Below the pieces are notes generated by a model. That model did no database searches, was not told the origin of the DNA, and worked only from the letters and a program-made list of their open reading frames with translations. Below, piece after piece: positions 58,801-64,000 of a stretch of 64,000 nucleotides of DNA (position 1 is the first letter of the stretch; each line of letters starts with the position of its first letter). The translations under genes and the position numbers were made by a program. The DNA lies in the NCBI GenBank assembly GCA_947493885.1, contig CANLTE010000003.1:1-64000 (forward strand), given 5' to 3'. This DNA comes from an uncultured Maribacter sp. (GTDB lineage Bacteria > Bacteroidota > Bacteroidia > Flavobacteriales > Flavobacteriaceae).

Positions 58801-60000
58801 TTAAAAAATTAAGAAATTTATATCGCTGTATTTAAGGTCAAACCATTCTCCTACAGCTTTACTGGTTAAAATACCGTGGTACATATACAAACCGTTTCTA
58901 AGTCCGCGATCAAAATGTAAAGAGTTTTCAATACCACCGTCTTCACCTAGTTTTAATAAATAAGGCGTAAAAATATTGCTGATAGAAACTGTTGCCGTTT
59001 TTGGATATCTAGAAGGTATATTAGGAACTCCATAATGAATTACCCCACATTTTTTAACAGTAGGTTTATCGTGGGTAGTAACCTCACTAGTTTCAAAACA
59101 TCCGCCCATATCTATACTAACATCAATAATCACAGCGTCCTTTTTCATATTCTCCACCATAGTTTGCGAAACTACAACAGGTGACCTGTTTTGACCACGA
59201 GTAGCTCCTATGGCTACATCACAGCGTTTTAGTGATTTTAACAGGTTTTTAGGCTGTATGGTAGAAGTGTAAACTGTTTGTTTTAGGTTAGCTTGTATTT
59301 TACGAAGTTTTGTTAACGAGTTATCAAATATTTTTACGTTAGCTCCTAATCCAATAGCTGATCTAGCAGCAAATTCGCCAACTGTACCTGCGCCAATAAT
59401 AACAACTTCAACGGGCGGAACACCACTGATGTTGCCAAACATTAGTCCATTACCTTTATTGGTGGCAGCCATAAGTTCTGAGGCAATTAGTACTGAAGAT
59501 GTTCCTGCAATTTCACTTAAAGAACGTACAGCAGGAAATTTCCCATCTTCATCTTGAATATATTCAAAAGCTATTGCGGTAATTCGTTTTTTTGCGAGTT
59601 CTTCAAAATAGTTTTTCTCTCTGGTTTTTATTTGTAAGGCTGAAATTACTGTTGCTTGCGGACTAAGCATCTTAATTTCTTCTAATGTAGGAGGTTCTAC
59701 TTTTAATAGAAGAGGACAAGCAAAAACTTTTCTAATATCGCTGGTAACTTCGCCTCCTGCGTTTGTATAATCACTATCAGAAAAATGTGCGCCTTCACCA
59801 GCACCAGATTCAATCAAGACTCTATGTCCGTTTGCAGTAATAGCATTCACAGCATCTGGAGTAAGGCAAATACGTTTTTCTTGATATTGTTTCTCCTTAG
59901 GTAAACCAATAAAAAGTTCTCCCTTTTGTTTTAAAATCTCAAGAGTTTCCTCTTGTGGAAGTAATTGTTGTTTACTAAATGGAGAAGTTGGTTGATTCAT
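58801..60000 (-). CDS. ald: Alanine dehydrogenase
   Basis: A 399-residue NAD+-dependent enzyme interconverting alanine and pyruvate plus ammonia. Visible motifs are the N-terminal GLPKEKQYQEKRICLTPDAV (substrate-site Arg and Lys), VVIIGAGTVGEFAARSAIGLGANVKIFD for NAD binding, and SVDMGGC-like IDVSIDMGGCFETS. The layout is that of the AlaDH/PNT family. The DUF4258 gene follows after 1 bp. A 207-residue membrane protein gene lies 90 bp upstream on the same strand. Confidence 0.9.
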   Translation of the reverse strand: MNQPTSPFSKQQLLPQEETLEILKQKGELFIGLPKEKQYQEKRICLTPDAVNAITANGHRVLIESGAGEGAHFSDSDYTNAGGEVTSDIRKVFACPLLLKVEPPTLEEIKMLSPQATVISALQIKTREKNYFEELAKKRITAIAFEYIQDEDGKFPAVRSLSEIAGTSSVLIASELMAATNKGNGLMFGNISGVPPVEVVIIGAGTVGEFAARSAIGLGANVKIFDNSLTKLRKIQANLKQTVYTSTIQPKNLLKSLKRCDVAIGATRGQNRSPVVVSQTMVENMKKDAVIIDVSIDMGGCFETSEVTTHDKPTVKKCGVIHYGVPNIPSRYPKTATVSISNIFTPYLLKLGEDGGIENSLHFDRGLRNGLYMYHGILTSKAVGEWFDLKYSDINFLIF

Positions 60001-60090: not shown

Positions 60091-60714
60091 TTACCCTTTC
60101 ATGTTAAAGAGTTCTTGTACACCTTCTTTGCATAATGAAGCGATATTGATTACCTCACTTTTAACGTCAAGGAAGATTTGTTTAAAGGCTCCGGGGCGTT
60201 TGCTATAGTTGATTTGCTCATTTGAATCCCTTTTTGCTTTTAGGTTTTCAAGCTCTTCCTCCATTGCTTTTAAATCAATACCATTAACATATTTGTCGTA
60301 TAACTTAATTCTAATGAAGTAAACAAACGGAATTACCACCATGCAAACGGGGATTACCCACCAAATACTACTTGTGTCAATAGCTTTACTTTCTGAAAAT
60401 ACTTCAAATAATTGAAAAGCGTACATGCAAATAGGAATCAGAATAATATGATACCACCATTGTTTACAAGTAAAAAACCAAAATATTAATAGATATAGGG
60501 GGATTATTTTTCCTGTGATAAACCAAATATGAGTAGATACACTATTAAAGCCATTACTTCCAATAGTTATACCTAAAAACGAAACAGTTTCTTCCGCATT
60601 ATTGTCTGGGAGATAATCATAAACTTTAAAAACAAAAGGAGTAATTGCAATTAGAAATACCATAAAAGATTCTATTACAATTTTGTTTTTTACTTTATTT
60701 TTGTCGTGTTTCAT
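60091..60714 (-). CDS. Single-module WW-type membrane protein of unknown function
   Basis: A 207-residue membrane protein with four predicted helices (about 12-30, 62-82, 88-106, 118-136) and a cytosolic coiled-coil tail (EEELENLKAKRDSN). The third helix begins with WW (residues 86-87) in CKQWWYHIILIPICM, followed by QLFEVFSESKAIDTSS. The same module is found twice in each of the two proteins encoded at 61300-62517 and 62974-64000. The family is unknown to me. It is probably co-transcribed with ald. Confidence 0.65.
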   Translation of the reverse strand: MKHDKNKVKNKIVIESFMVFLIAITPFVFKVYDYLPDNNAEETVSFLGITIGSNGFNSVSTHIWFITGKIIPLYLLIFWFFTCKQWWYHIILIPICMYAFQLFEVFSESKAIDTSSIWWVIPVCMVVIPFVYFIRIKLYDKYVNGIDLKAMEEELENLKAKRDSNEQINYSKRPGAFKQIFLDVKSEVINIASLCKEGVQELFNMKG

Positions 60715-60761
60715 AAGTCATTATGAAATAATAATATTGTCAATAAATTAACAACAAAAAA

Positions 60762-60780
60762 AGGGCAAAAATATTGCCCT
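60762..60780 (-). terminator. Terminator of the small lipoprotein gene
   Basis: AGGGCAA (60762-60768) pairs with TTGCCCT (60774-60780) with a 5-nt loop; on the minus strand seven T follow. It lies between the small lipoprotein gene and the membrane protein gene on the same strand and separates their transcripts. Confidence 0.8.
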
Positions 60781-60827
60781 AATAATTATAATAAATAAAG
60801 TATTTTACTTTAATAGAAAGTTGTTTG

Positions 60828-60971
60828 TTATTTCCTATTACCCTTTTCTACTTTGTTTCGATCAATTCCCTTTTCGTATAGGGTATCATCTTCTGAAGTA
60901 TTGTTTTCACAAGAAGCGGCTAATAATGTAACACAAGCCATAAGGCCAAATAAAAATTTCTTCATCTTCAT
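60828..60971 (-). CDS. Very small lipoprotein
   Basis: A 47-residue ORF (45 residues if the second ATG at 60965 is used). The signal MKKFLFGLMACVTLLAASC ends in the lipobox LAASC, and the mature part is only 26 residues: ENNTSEDDTLYEKGIDRNKV and a basic KGNRK tail. A terminator follows. It is too short for standard gene callers and may be a lipid-anchored peptide. Small lipoproteins of this type are common in Flavobacteria; no function is known. Confidence 0.6.
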   Translation of the reverse strand: MKMKKFLFGLMACVTLLAASCENNTSEDDTLYEKGIDRNKVEKGNRK

Positions 60972-61299
60972 AAGTTTTAATTAGTTAATAAATGGAGCAT
61001 TCTCGCGGCTAATGTAGGGAAAAAAGTAAAACAACTTAGGGTTAAAATGTTAAAAAAGTGCATTTCGTCGATAAAAAATTTGTTTTTGTCGAAATTTTTC
61101 GATAAACAGTAAATTTTGTAAAATAAAATTCTAAAAAAAACGTTAATGGAAACATTTTTATCTTTCAGATATAATTTTTTAAGGAATAAATGAGTCTTTT
61201 TAATACCAAGTTGTTGTATTTTATGACTAAAATTTTCTCCAACTCCATAATATAATTACTACTATTGCTGTCTTTAATTTTTATAAGACGTTTATCTGA
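60972..61299. other. Intergenic region before the two-module membrane protein
   Basis: This 328-bp AT-rich gap holds two copies of TCGATAAA at 61068-61075 and 61099-61106 with TCGAAA between them, and a -7-like box TACTATTG at 61260-61267, 32 bp before the next ATG. An 11-mer ACTACTATTGC around the latter (61258-61268) recurs at 62933-62943 before the paralogue. I see no other gene. Confidence 0.5.
61258..61268 (+). promoter_or_regulatory. Shared promoter word of the paralogous membrane protein genes (copy 1)
   Basis: ACTACTATTGC lies 31 bp before the ATG at 61300. The same 11-mer at 62933-62943 lies 30 bp before the ATG at 62974. Within it TACTATTG is one base from TAnnTTTG, so it may be the -7 box of both. 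Confidence 0.5.
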
Positions 61300-62517
61300 A
61301 TGAAATCATTTTGGAAGAAAAAGTTTATATGGGATGTTTCTATGGCAATACTAATAATGGTGTTACCTTACGTTTTGCTAATTCATACTCTTTTTGATAC
61401 TAATAAAAATTTTATAGTTTGTTTTGGATTCAAGTATTTTCATGGTTATCAGGGCAACGATACCTTTCTTTATTTGGTTCTTAGTATTGGCATTATTTGT
61501 GTTTTATTGGCTTTATGGTTTGTAAATAATTCAAGATGGTGGGGTTACTTCATTTTATTTCCATTGGTTGTTTGGTTGGATAGATACTTTAGAAAAGTTT
61601 TTAAAAACTTAGATTTTATAAAGGAAAATGAAATTGTTTTTTCCATTGTTGTTAATCTTTTTGTGATTGGTTTATTGATTGTAATTAAGAAAAGACTATA
61701 TAGTAAGGAAGTTATTGGAGTTTATATGTTTCAATACACTAAAGGATTTCTAGGATTAAAACTTTTTTATACTTCAATTCATCAGCAATTTTTGGTTGCT
61801 GAAAAAGTAGAAAATGATGAAGAATATCTTGGGAAAAGAGTAAAAAGCAAAATGTTGATTCAGGAAAAATTGTCCAACTTTTTTATCAAGGAATCTGAGT
61901 TTTTTAAGAAAAAACCTACTGAGTTTTTCTTTGCTTTTGTCTTGTTTTTAACACCTTTTTTGACATATACGAGTGATATCTTATCAACTCAACATCAGGA
62001 AACTTTACTTCTAACTTTTGGACTGTTTGATTTTGCTCAATATTATTCAAATAATTGGTTTTTTATTTGGTTTATTACTGTTAAGCTTTCATTGTTAATA
62101 CAATATATTATTTGGTTTGTTTCTCAAAATGAATGGTGGCGTTTTGCAATATTGTCGCCCATTGTGTTAACAATATACCAATTTACCGAGGTGTTTGGAG
62201 AAACACAAACAATTGACGAATCGTCTTTTTTAAGAGCCGTCCCAATAATTGGTTTAGTGATTTGTTTTATTTTATTATTTTCTAGAGTAATAAACTATAA
62301 ATCCAAAATATTAAATATTTACGATGAATTATCGTCGGAAATTGAAGTGCTTTTACAAAAAGTAGGGGAAGATAAAACAATGTTGTATCAACAAAAATTT
62401 CAGTTTAGTGAATTAACTAAAAGTAAAATAAAGTCTTCCGAAAAACTCAAACAATTATTTCAATTAAAAAAAGAGTTGCAGGATGAGCTTGAAAATAAAT
62501 CAAGTTTTACAAAGTAA
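61300..62517 (+). CDS. Two-module WW-type membrane protein of unknown function
   Basis: A 405-residue membrane protein. Two copies of a four-helix module are present: residues about 12-130 (WW at 80-81, SRWWGYFILFPLV) and about 208-330 (WW at 279-280, NEWWRFAILSPIV). A charged helical linker lies between them (150-205), and a coiled coil forms the end (335-400). The second half resembles the complete protein at 60091-60714 (EVFGETQTIDESS against EVFSESKAIDTSS). The start shares a strong match with the gene at 62974. Its function is unknown. Its end overlaps tsaE by 11 bp. Confidence 0.65.
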   Translation: MKSFWKKKFIWDVSMAILIMVLPYVLLIHTLFDTNKNFIVCFGFKYFHGYQGNDTFLYLVLSIGIICVLLALWFVNNSRWWGYFILFPLVVWLDRYFRKVFKNLDFIKENEIVFSIVVNLFVIGLLIVIKKRLYSKEVIGVYMFQYTKGFLGLKLFYTSIHQQFLVAEKVENDEEYLGKRVKSKMLIQEKLSNFFIKESEFFKKKPTEFFFAFVLFLTPFLTYTSDILSTQHQETLLLTFGLFDFAQYYSNNWFFIWFITVKLSLLIQYIIWFVSQNEWWRFAILSPIVLTIYQFTEVFGETQTIDESSFLRAVPIIGLVICFILLFSRVINYKSKILNIYDELSSEIEVLLQKVGEDKTMLYQQKFQFSELTKSKIKSSEKLKQLFQLKKELQDELENKSSFTK

Positions 62518-62914
62518 TTCTTCTTTCATTAGGGCTTACAACTTCAATAGTTACTCGTTGACAATCTTCGGGTAGGAAAGAATTTATTTTCTCAGCCCAT
62601 TCAATAAAAACCCAGTTATCTTGATAAAGGTAATCCTCAAAACCTAAATCTAAGGCCTCAGTTTCGTCATTCAATCTATAAAAATCAAAATGATGTCCCA
62701 ATACTTTTCCATTAGGTAAGTTGTATTCGTTTACAATTCCAAAAGTTGGACTATTAGCAATATTTTTACCACCTAATTCTTTAACCAAAGCCTTGATTAA
62801 TGTGGTTTTTCCTGCACCCATATCGCCATAAAAACATAATTTTTTTGACTTTGTATTTGACAACAATTCGTGGGCTATTTGTTGTATTTGATTTTCTGTA
62901 TAGATTTTATTCAT
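62507..62914 (-). CDS. tsaE: tRNA threonylcarbamoyladenosine biosynthesis ATPase TsaE
   Basis: A 135-residue P-loop ATPase with Walker A GDMGAGKTT at residues 30-38, the NSPTFGIVNEY segment and the HHFDFYRL stretch typical of TsaE. It works with TsaB and TsaD in forming t6A37 in tRNAs decoding ANN codons. A -7 box TAAATTTG at 62961-62968 (minus strand) lies 47 bp upstream. It is placed between two paralogous membrane protein genes on the other strand; in related genomes tsaE is often next to ald. Confidence 0.95.
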   Translation of the reverse strand: MNKIYTENQIQQIAHELLSNTKSKKLCFYGDMGAGKTTLIKALVKELGGKNIANSPTFGIVNEYNLPNGKVLGHHFDFYRLNDETEALDLGFEDYLYQDNWVFIEWAEKINSFLPEDCQRVTIEVVSPNERRITL

Positions 62915-62932
62915 TGGAAATCTAATAAAATA

Positions 62933-62943
62933 ACTACTATTGC
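62933..62943 (+). promoter_or_regulatory. Shared promoter word of the paralogous membrane protein genes (copy 2)
   Basis: The second copy of ACTACTATTGC, at the same distance from its gene as copy 1. Little else of the two upstream regions agrees, so the word is probably kept for function. Confidence 0.5.
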
Positions 62944-62960
62944 ACCCTTGACTTCAAAAG

Positions 62961-62968
62961 CAAATTTA
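62961..62968 (-). promoter_or_regulatory. -7 box of tsaE
   Basis: TAAATTTG on the minus strand fits TAnnTTTG. It is only 5 bp from the start codon of the divergent membrane protein gene at 62974. Confidence 0.45.
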
Positions 62969-62973
62969 AGTAG

Positions 62974-64000
62974 ATGAAATCGTTTTGGAAAAGAAAATTT
63001 ATTTGGGATGTTACAATGGCTGTTTGCATTACTGTACTACCAATTATTATTTATACTCATACTTTATTTGATACTAATAAAAATTCGATAAATGTTTTTG
63101 GTTTTAACTATAATCATGGGGTGATGGGTAATGATACTTTTGTATGGGGTGCTTGTCTTGTCATAATTCCATTTATTCTGTTTTCATTGTGGTATATTAA
63201 TAATACGTATTGGTGGAAAGATTACATTCTTTTGCCAATGGTAGTTAGTTTGAATTTAATTACTACTGGTTTTTTTAAATTTCCAGATTTTATTGAAAAA
63301 TATATCTTGTTTGTTTTATTTTTTTTTATAGTACTTGTTTGGAGGGTTTTAGAAAAAGTAAGACGTATGATTGTAAAATTTGAGGTAATAGATAATTTAG
63401 AAGTTACCATTGTCGACTACCTTAACGCAATAAAAGGAAAATATAGATATTTAAACAAGAGTATTGTTTCTTTAAGGGAGAATCGAGAGTTGATTTCAAG
63501 TGATGAATATTTAAAAAAAATTACGAGTACTCAAATTCAAATAAAACAGGGTTTGCAAGGTGTTAGAAAAAGCAAAAAAAATTACGAGCGAAGGAATAAT
63601 TTTGATTTTTTAATTATTGTATGTTTTATATTTTGTTTCTTTTTAATTCAATTAAATAAATTGTTACCTGAGAGATTTTTAAAGTCAATTTTGGTTGTGT
63701 TTAACCTCAATAACCATGGCTTTCCTGATATACAAACCTATATTTACCTGATTGTGGTTAAACTTTGTTTATTAATTCCGCTGTTTCTGTGGTATGTTAC
63801 TCAAAAAAATTGGTGGAGATACGCTATTTTTTCACCCATTACTTTAACAATGTATCAACTTTGGGAAATAACATTACCTACCTATTATATGGATGAAGTA
63901 TCTATTTGGCATGCTATGCCAGTGGTCATATTAATAATCCTGTTTACTGCTATGCTTTCTAAACTTATAAACTATAAGTTTAGAATACTTGATATTTATA
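62974..64000 (+). CDS. Two-module WW-type membrane protein, partial at the window edge
   Basis: The frame is open from the ATG at 62974 to the end of the window (342 codons so far). The N-terminus MKSFWKRKFIWDVTMAV is nearly the same as that of the gene at 61300 (MKSFWKKKFIWDVSMAI), and HTLFDTNKN follows in both. It has two four-helix modules with WW at residues 80-81 and 280-281, separated by a charged linker (130-208) longer than in the paralogue. A recent tandem duplication is likely. The function is unknown. Confidence 0.65.
   Translation, partial: MKSFWKRKFIWDVTMAVCITVLPIIIYTHTLFDTNKNSINVFGFNYNHGVMGNDTFVWGACLVIIPFILFSLWYINNTYWWKDYILLPMVVSLNLITTGFFKFPDFIEKYILFVLFFFIVLVWRVLEKVRRMIVKFEVIDNLEVTIVDYLNAIKGKYRYLNKSIVSLRENRELISSDEYLKKITSTQIQIKQGLQGVRKSKKNYERRNNFDFLIIVCFIFCFFLIQLNKLLPERFLKSILVVFNLNNHGFPDIQTYIYLIVVKLCLLIPLFLWYVTQKNWWRYAIFSPITLTMYQLWEITLPTYYMDEVSIWHAMPVVILIILFTAMLSKLINYKFRILDIY

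Follow-up and report, generated by a model that had tools for sequence, protein, structure and literature searches.

The locus considered here raises the question of what three related membrane proteins near one end of it are for. The window, meaning the whole stretch analysed, comprises the initial 64 kb of contig C3 from an uncultured Maribacter sp. (whole genome 3.84 Mb), and its last part encodes one protein with a single four-helix membrane module (X) and two paralogues with two modules each (X2a and X2b). A short gene directly upstream of X, termed pep, offers an answer: pep and X are very probably a co-adapted exported peptide and membrane partner, and we give just short of an even chance to their being a ligand-receptor pair, most likely serving peptide signalling used by hosts and temperate phages. 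The four genes are as follows.

60091 to 60714, minus strand: X, 207 amino acids (aa), a single four-helix module and a helical tail, probably cytosolic; proposed receptor or partner of pep.
60828 to 60971, minus strand: pep, a 47-aa precursor with a lipoprotein-type signal peptide (..LLAASC) and the basic tip GIDRNKVEKGNRK; profile E 1.9e-19 in this genome.
61300 to 62517, plus strand: X2a, two-module paralogue, 405 aa, with module 1 at about residues 1-135, module 2 at about 208-340, then a helical tail.
62974 to 64000, running beyond the window, plus strand: X2b, two-module paralogue, 397 aa in all.

X was found in 212/299 sampled genomes of the family Flavobacteriaceae. The window pep, a gene that the initial annotation did not list, has 47 codons (MKMKKFLFGLMACVTLLAASCENNTSEDDTLYEKGIDRNKVEKGNRK) and lies between tsaE and X, on the same strand as X and directly upstream of it. 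Using a profile built from 45 such peptides, we detected pep directly upstream of 96/100 X open reading frames (ORFs), from 95 loci with tsaE and ald (alanine dehydrogenase) in view, and beside 90/99 distinct single-module X ORFs, some of them cut at locus edges. Loci fetched after the profile had been built gave 30 of 33 X ORFs with pep, and within 43 core loci pep was present at 47/49 single-module X ORFs versus 0/263 other ORFs of at least 200 aa. The four of the 100 ORFs without pep by profile comprise L086, where pep lies downstream of X, L186, which has a clear but unscored pep, one that reads N at that place, and L173, which has no ORF of at least 28 residues there. At the genome level, lists compared by eye gave pep-profile matches at E ~1e-8 or better in ~172/212 X-positive versus 1/87 X-negative genomes, the exception being G190, in which the interval from tsaE to ald contains a pep-like ORF, its tip not of the usual kind, and lacks X; a count at E 0.01 was uninformative because other lipoprotein signals also match (284/299 genomes). 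Among 35 ORFs of at least 260 aa, a set that includes the edge-cut L028 and L029 and the single-module L146 and L120, the sole one with pep was L120, which holds one module by eye, and the X2 proteins thus lack a pep of their own.

The pep precursors combine an export-type signal with a short C-terminal tip. By pattern, a lipobox was present in the signal peptide of 59/96 pep and absent from 37/96, a core like [IV][DE][KR]xx[IVL] was found in 73/96, and two or more tandem units occurred in 10/96; some precursors hold two to four copies of a unit of ~10-15 residues, VDKTKIPSQAKKQSF is repeated in those of L044 and L049, and L077 carries tandem pep genes. A tip-only model made from 31 lipobox peptides scored 14 non-lipobox tips at an average of 12.6 bits, compared with 0.03 for 280 shuffles. 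Matches of pep to the family libraries were confined to the signal region, and assignment to the PG1828 family lipoproteins (NF050142) was rejected (window pep 21.3 bits versus a cut-off of 50, over residues 3-28 only). A 130-aa lipoprotein with repeated TDGEDDLPGQ units (L245:10915-11307) also gave a weak match to the pep profile (E 7e-4).

The pair is hypervariable. Compared with a same-genus genome (G004, locus L004), nucleotide identity was 0.98-0.99 for aroB, proDH, the DUF4258 gene and ald, 0.99 for X2a and tsaE, 0.98 for the HTH-like gene and, further out, 0.91-0.94 for porX, HD and lpxD; the values for X, pep and X2b were 0.73, 0.84 and 0.58, respectively. X2a was 99% identical to its G004 counterpart, and the adjoining X2b agreed with its positional counterpart at ~28% of aligned protein columns. 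For comparison of locus pairs by ald, 90 loci were taken from the 96 pep-bearing ORFs, with five extra tandem copies and one short-ald locus dropped and identical X sequences counted once. Eight locus pairs had an ald identity of at least 0.96 (96-99%): in four of them X was divergent (0.49-0.72) and the tips were different (L101/L166, L001/L004, L049/L168, L176/L191), and in the other four X was similar (0.86-0.94) and the tips were identical or similar (L059/L112, L170/L193, L203/L204, L084/L085), with tsaE identity ranging from 0.69 to 0.99 across both groups together.

Tip variation followed the membrane part of X (residues 11-117) rather than its cytosolic part (139-207). Across 94 close pairs from 58 loci (ald distance <0.12), the partial r between tip and membrane part, which allows for ald, tsaE and signal peptide, was 0.69 (0/2000 within-clade permutations), compared with 0.17 for the cytosolic part, a value reached by 1623/2000 permutations; at ald thresholds of 0.15 and 0.20 the membrane r was 0.55 and 0.42 (0/2000 each) and the cytosolic r 0.14 and 0.02. 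When the nearest X was chosen by membrane part, its tip was more similar than when the choice was made by cytosolic part, ald or tsaE (Wilcoxon P = 0.002, 0.018 and 0.008, respectively). The membrane part of the G004 X was closest to that of L038 (0.69), followed by L057 (0.67, another tip) and L044 (0.64), with 0.62 for the same-genus L001; a KIPSQ tip is present in L038, G004, L044 and L049, and the G004 tail was closest to that of L001 (0.75) among those listed.

Co-variation of this kind would also be expected if pep were a bound subunit of X or a toxin that X neutralises, and it counts to that extent against a signalling role. As a regulatory or structural subunit, pep would stay on X in the envelope without any cell-cell communication, which agrees with the co-variation, the tight linkage and the 59/96 precursors whose lipobox could keep them anchored; the tandem repeats of the unit, the 37/96 pep without a lipobox and the similar tips found across genera that share similar X membrane parts argue the other way, and this explanation appears distinctly improbable. 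If pep were a bacteriocin-like or toxin peptide, X would be a four-transmembrane (4-TM) immunity protein and the X2 genes orphan immunity genes. Such a scheme would account for a small exported peptide followed directly by a 4-TM protein of matched specificity, for the peptide-less X2 copies and, at two loci, for exporters of HlyD type (with C39-ABC by Pfam at one of them) that neighbour X2 and the HTH-like gene, but those exporters adjoin X2 and not pep, which has its own Sec-type signal, the pep units look hydrophilic by eye, and X is present in 212/299 genomes, its position being unchanged across the 43 loci inspected, all of which make it improbable.

Phages carry the pair as well. A tblastn search with X matched nine records of Cellulophaga phage Ingeline (E 1e-9), in which a 49-aa lipobox gene ending PPIDKGVPPPTNG (candidate peptide NYEPPIDKGVPPPTNG), an X homologue, a short X2-tail-like gene and, in convergent orientation, a gene with an HTH-regulator annotation lie near the integrase. 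The Ingeline HTH protein is related (E 3e-16) to the HTH-like gene that stands tail-to-tail with X2b just beyond the window and that gave no Pfam match at 1e-3. PHROGs gave the Ingeline protein a transcriptional regulator/repressor label and recognised as integrases the two that were tested, from Ingeline and L234, and returned nothing usable for viral pep and X. Four viral-contig scans yielded five elements beyond Ingeline. All six viral elements carried pep immediately ahead of X, with profile E-values from 3e-13 to 1e-4 in five and, in Ingeline, a value of 0.041 together with recognition by eye; a related HTH gene was tail-to-tail (convergent) in 4/6. The precursors of L234 and L236 contain two units each; that of the L234 phage holds IDKDKYEIPPNG and IDKDNYEIPPNG, the former matching exactly the tip of host peptides, for example in L153. 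By eye, the chromosomal loci L247 and L248 resembled prophages, and a second chromosomal pep-X copy, which has a peptide of its own (with tips like IDKDKYEIPPNG), was located at most ~1.3 kb from tRNA-Gly/tRNA-Leu in 7/9 further loci. The seven loci L240-L246 all have their second copy near tRNA-Gly/tRNA-Leu, a typical phage attachment setting, and no relative of the two phage integrases (Ingeline, L234) was detected there.

These positions bring in a further explanation, namely a superinfection exclusion or anti-phage pair, in which a small lipoprotein and a four-helix membrane protein of hosts and prophages would keep the DNA of related phages out or abort their infection, the variation reflecting an arms race. 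Genes for small lipoproteins and 4-TM proteins in such phage regions are known to act in exclusion (TP-J34 Ltp and lambda RexB), the phage copies lie at the integrase/repressor region in Ingeline and along with an integrase in L234, and the locus is hypervariable. However, PADLOC returned a single weak match on X2 proteins (1/15, E 0.008), and the unit, short and in some precursors repeated, varies together with X itself but not with its cytosolic part; even so, an arms race directed at a single external target might shift pep and X together. We consider exclusion unlikely, if deserving of some weight. The authors of the Ingeline paper proposed a host-density response from its integrase and LuxR genes, in passages that make no mention of the peptide pair (PMC8776804).

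Peptide signalling is the reading that we favour. Drawing on the linkage, the export-type signal, the repeats, the hypervariability, the co-variation limited to the membrane part and the phage copies, we infer how pep may be released, bound and used in signalling, and what biological role it may have. The precursor would use the Sec route, as a lipoprotein or, in one clade, with a signal peptide of the ordinary kind, and its C-terminal unit (~10-15 residues, sometimes in two to four repeats) would presumably be cut free and recognised as a ligand by the membrane/periplasmic part of X (TM1 to the loop before TM4), which would pass the signal inward via the cytosolic helices. Most likely the pair would inform cells of kin density or kin identity, and species would swap its alleles ("pherotypes"). 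Temperate phages, which carry the pair usually facing a repressor-type gene, would use it in the lysogeny decision, and the X2 proteins would be peptide-less derivatives of an X-like receptor. A bolder and more doubtful version, which we put forward tentatively, is that an undescribed peptide language is common to Flavobacteriaceae and the temperate phages that infect them, built on multi-copy lipopeptide pheromones and a new class of four-helix membrane receptors, with pherotypes exchanged between species and phages able to emit a host-type peptide to steer lysogeny, an arbitrium analogue in Gram-negatives.

Several observations weigh against signalling. No ORF with two modules has its own pep, only 73/96 tips carry the core pattern and 44/96 end P..G-like, and the window tip lacks P..G. 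No maturation protease was found for the putative mature peptide, and no kinase or other enzyme domain that would give X an evident output was present among the Pfam/NCBIfam matches of X or X2. The permutation null for the correlation between tip and membrane part is nonzero (mean 0.38), and over all 4005 pairs the signal peptide tracked X (partial r 0.49) as well as the tip did (0.41), so that a role of the tip is apparent only when closely related loci are compared. The distal C-terminal tail of X had a mean identity of only 0.34 among close pairs, the sole conserved stretch of the tail being the juxtamembrane residues 139-160 (0.75), and the tail, identical in L101/L166, fell to 0.45 in L176/L191; the data therefore show the tip moving with the membrane part, not constancy of the output part.

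Should signalling nevertheless be correct, a large bacterial family would gain a peptide communication system whose receptor type yielded no relative in our searches, and the density response suggested by the Ingeline authors would gain a concrete mechanism (PMC8776804). Even under the other explanations, pep-X is an undescribed, hypervariable, phage-shared two-gene family whose chromosomal place is kept in all 43 loci inspected; no description of it was found in the open-licence papers searched.

The module itself was the starting point of the initial annotation, which had X, X2a and X2b sharing four membrane helices with a WW motif, and both this and the ORF positions (60091-60714 on the minus strand, 61300-62517 and 62974 onward on the plus strand) were borne out. 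BLASTP matched X to X2a at module 2 (E 3e-18) and module 1 (E 2e-9) and to X2b twice (E 5e-16 and 4e-5), the two halves of X2a and of X2b proved homologous to each other, as had been proposed, and the invariant columns of the three-way alignment include W79, W86, W87, P94, Q101, E104, D113 and S116. The "SS" described after the WW was not conserved among the eight same-genus orthologues. In AlphaFold models of X (predicted local distance difference test (pLDDT) 79.3, predicted template modelling score (pTM) 0.48) and X2a (pLDDT 78.0, pTM 0.68), each module forms four long helices, the third of which opens with WW; X and module 1 of X2a also show a small beta hairpin between the first two helices, and additional helices follow the fourth. 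Charged flanks suggest that both ends of X face the cytosol. The shared start of X2a and X2b, MKSFW(K/R)KFIWDV, and the common promoter word were likewise confirmed, ACTACTATTGC occurring twice in the 64 kb, 31-42 bases 5' of each X2 start (0/100 shuffles). At 37% identity, X2a and X2b are not the recent duplicates they had been taken for.

The same annotation knew of no family for the module, and none was identified. X, X2a and X2b had no Pfam or NCBIfam match below E 0.1; the best matches of 50 X orthologues were scattered in Pfam (DUF2070 on top, E 2.5e-4, 3/50) and X orthologues were equally scattered in NCBIfam (best E 1.6e-3), with no convincing placement in either. PDB sequences gave nothing usable for X, Foldseek with the single-module X model (pLDDT 79, pTM 0.48) gave no match at E 0.001 (best 0.59), and the best Z in a VIA structural search with that model was 5.4 (YnaI), within the range of common helical arrangements. 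In a comparison with LytS-type sensor kinases, one sensor-kinase-like protein (L126:5172-6200) matched the X profile weakly and also matched by hhalign (probability 90.6 over 46 columns), compared with no match for two other kinases (1.2-1.3) and 38.7 for the three aligned together; the resemblance of its 4-TM N-terminus to X is likely chance, which is plausible because many genomes were searched. Judged by these comparisons, the WW module is an undescribed family that no known family claims. The initial interpretation finds partial support: an uncharacterised membrane system, perhaps a sensor, fits these results, a sensor-like reading being the one favoured.

The remaining features of the region are as follows.

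58801 to 60000, minus strand: ald, the usual downstream neighbour of X.
60762 to 60780, minus strand: a terminator-like hairpin between pep and X, weak because one was found in the region versus 1.1 expected from shuffles.
61258 to 61268, plus strand: ACTACTATTGC, 5' of X2a.
62507 to 62914, minus strand: tsaE, conserved on the upstream side of pep-X; in the window X2a sits between it and pep in antiparallel orientation.
62933 to 62943, plus strand: ACTACTATTGC, 5' of X2b.

Upstream of pep-X, tsaE was present in 43/43 loci inspected, with porX seen beyond it in 40/43; ald was downstream of X in 42/43, the exception being L099, where the contig ends. Other genes sometimes intervene. A class-level search for X returned just two weak matches outside the family, and an order-level search two outside genomes, G692 and G705. 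In G705 (L120) a pep ending SGIDPRDIRIPSHG precedes an X-like gene at an unrelated chromosomal place. G692, from another family, encodes small lipoproteins ending AIEKDKVEHPGNTK and AIEKGEIEPPGDRRK (L226:1504-2218 and L230:1504-2200), each pep-like gene overlapping a following ORF of 200-216 aa that is multi-helix by look; these gene pairs, which were not counted, are possibly a distant version of pep-X.

Bacterial X2 genes with enough flank had the HTH-like gene at most 3 kb downstream in 29/32 cases (a set that includes the edge-cut L028 and L029 and the single-module L146), always tail-to-tail and in 18 within 60 bases; L079 has the HTH-like gene without X2. X2 may descend from phage-type modules. 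No copies of X2a were found on plasmids. At L123:1-7206 and L124:7322-12722, X2 and the HTH-like gene adjoin genes for an HlyD-type protein, identified by Pfam in both, and for an ABC exporter with C39 peptidase, identified by Pfam in L124 and recognised by eye in L123, an arrangement like that of bacteriocin export. Three tandem 318-aa X2 genes at L122:571-4371 have ends better conserved than the middle, and two X2 genes at L076:2610-5129 have nearly identical C-terminal and divergent N-terminal parts; these sequence patterns suggest mosaic exchange.

Among known systems, class II bacteriocins with multi-TM immunity proteins resemble pep-X in that a gene for a small peptide precedes one for a small multi-helix membrane protein, the two having matched specificity, and differ from it in that pep-X has repeated short units, a fixed chromosomal position in the loci seen and a Sec-type signal. 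With Ltp lipoproteins and lambda RexAB, too, the lysogeny region of a temperate phage encodes a small lipoprotein or a 4-TM protein, whereas pep-X, compared with them by description, is chromosomal in most sampled family genomes. The agr and ComQXPA systems pair a polymorphic peptide with a membrane receptor in which the sensor part varies accordingly, but their receptor has a histidine kinase, and none was found in X; nor was a dedicated processing gene seen with the pep-X pair, and there is no sequence match. The RRNPPA systems of Bacillota (Rap-Phr, AimR-AimP) consist, like pep-X, of two adjacent genes, include an exported propeptide and are used by phages. As in these and in arbitrium, an exported propeptide gene adjoins the candidate receptor gene, pep standing beside 96/100 X ORFs and X being the putative receptor. 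The RRNPPA receptor is a cytosolic TPR-domain protein, whereas X is modelled as four membrane helices of no known family (no TPR family was among its Pfam matches), and the hosts of pep-X, unlike those of RRNPPA, are Gram-negative. The multi-unit pep precursors share a last trait with the Rap systems of Bacillus phages, for which propeptides with several pheromones are described (PMC11343458).

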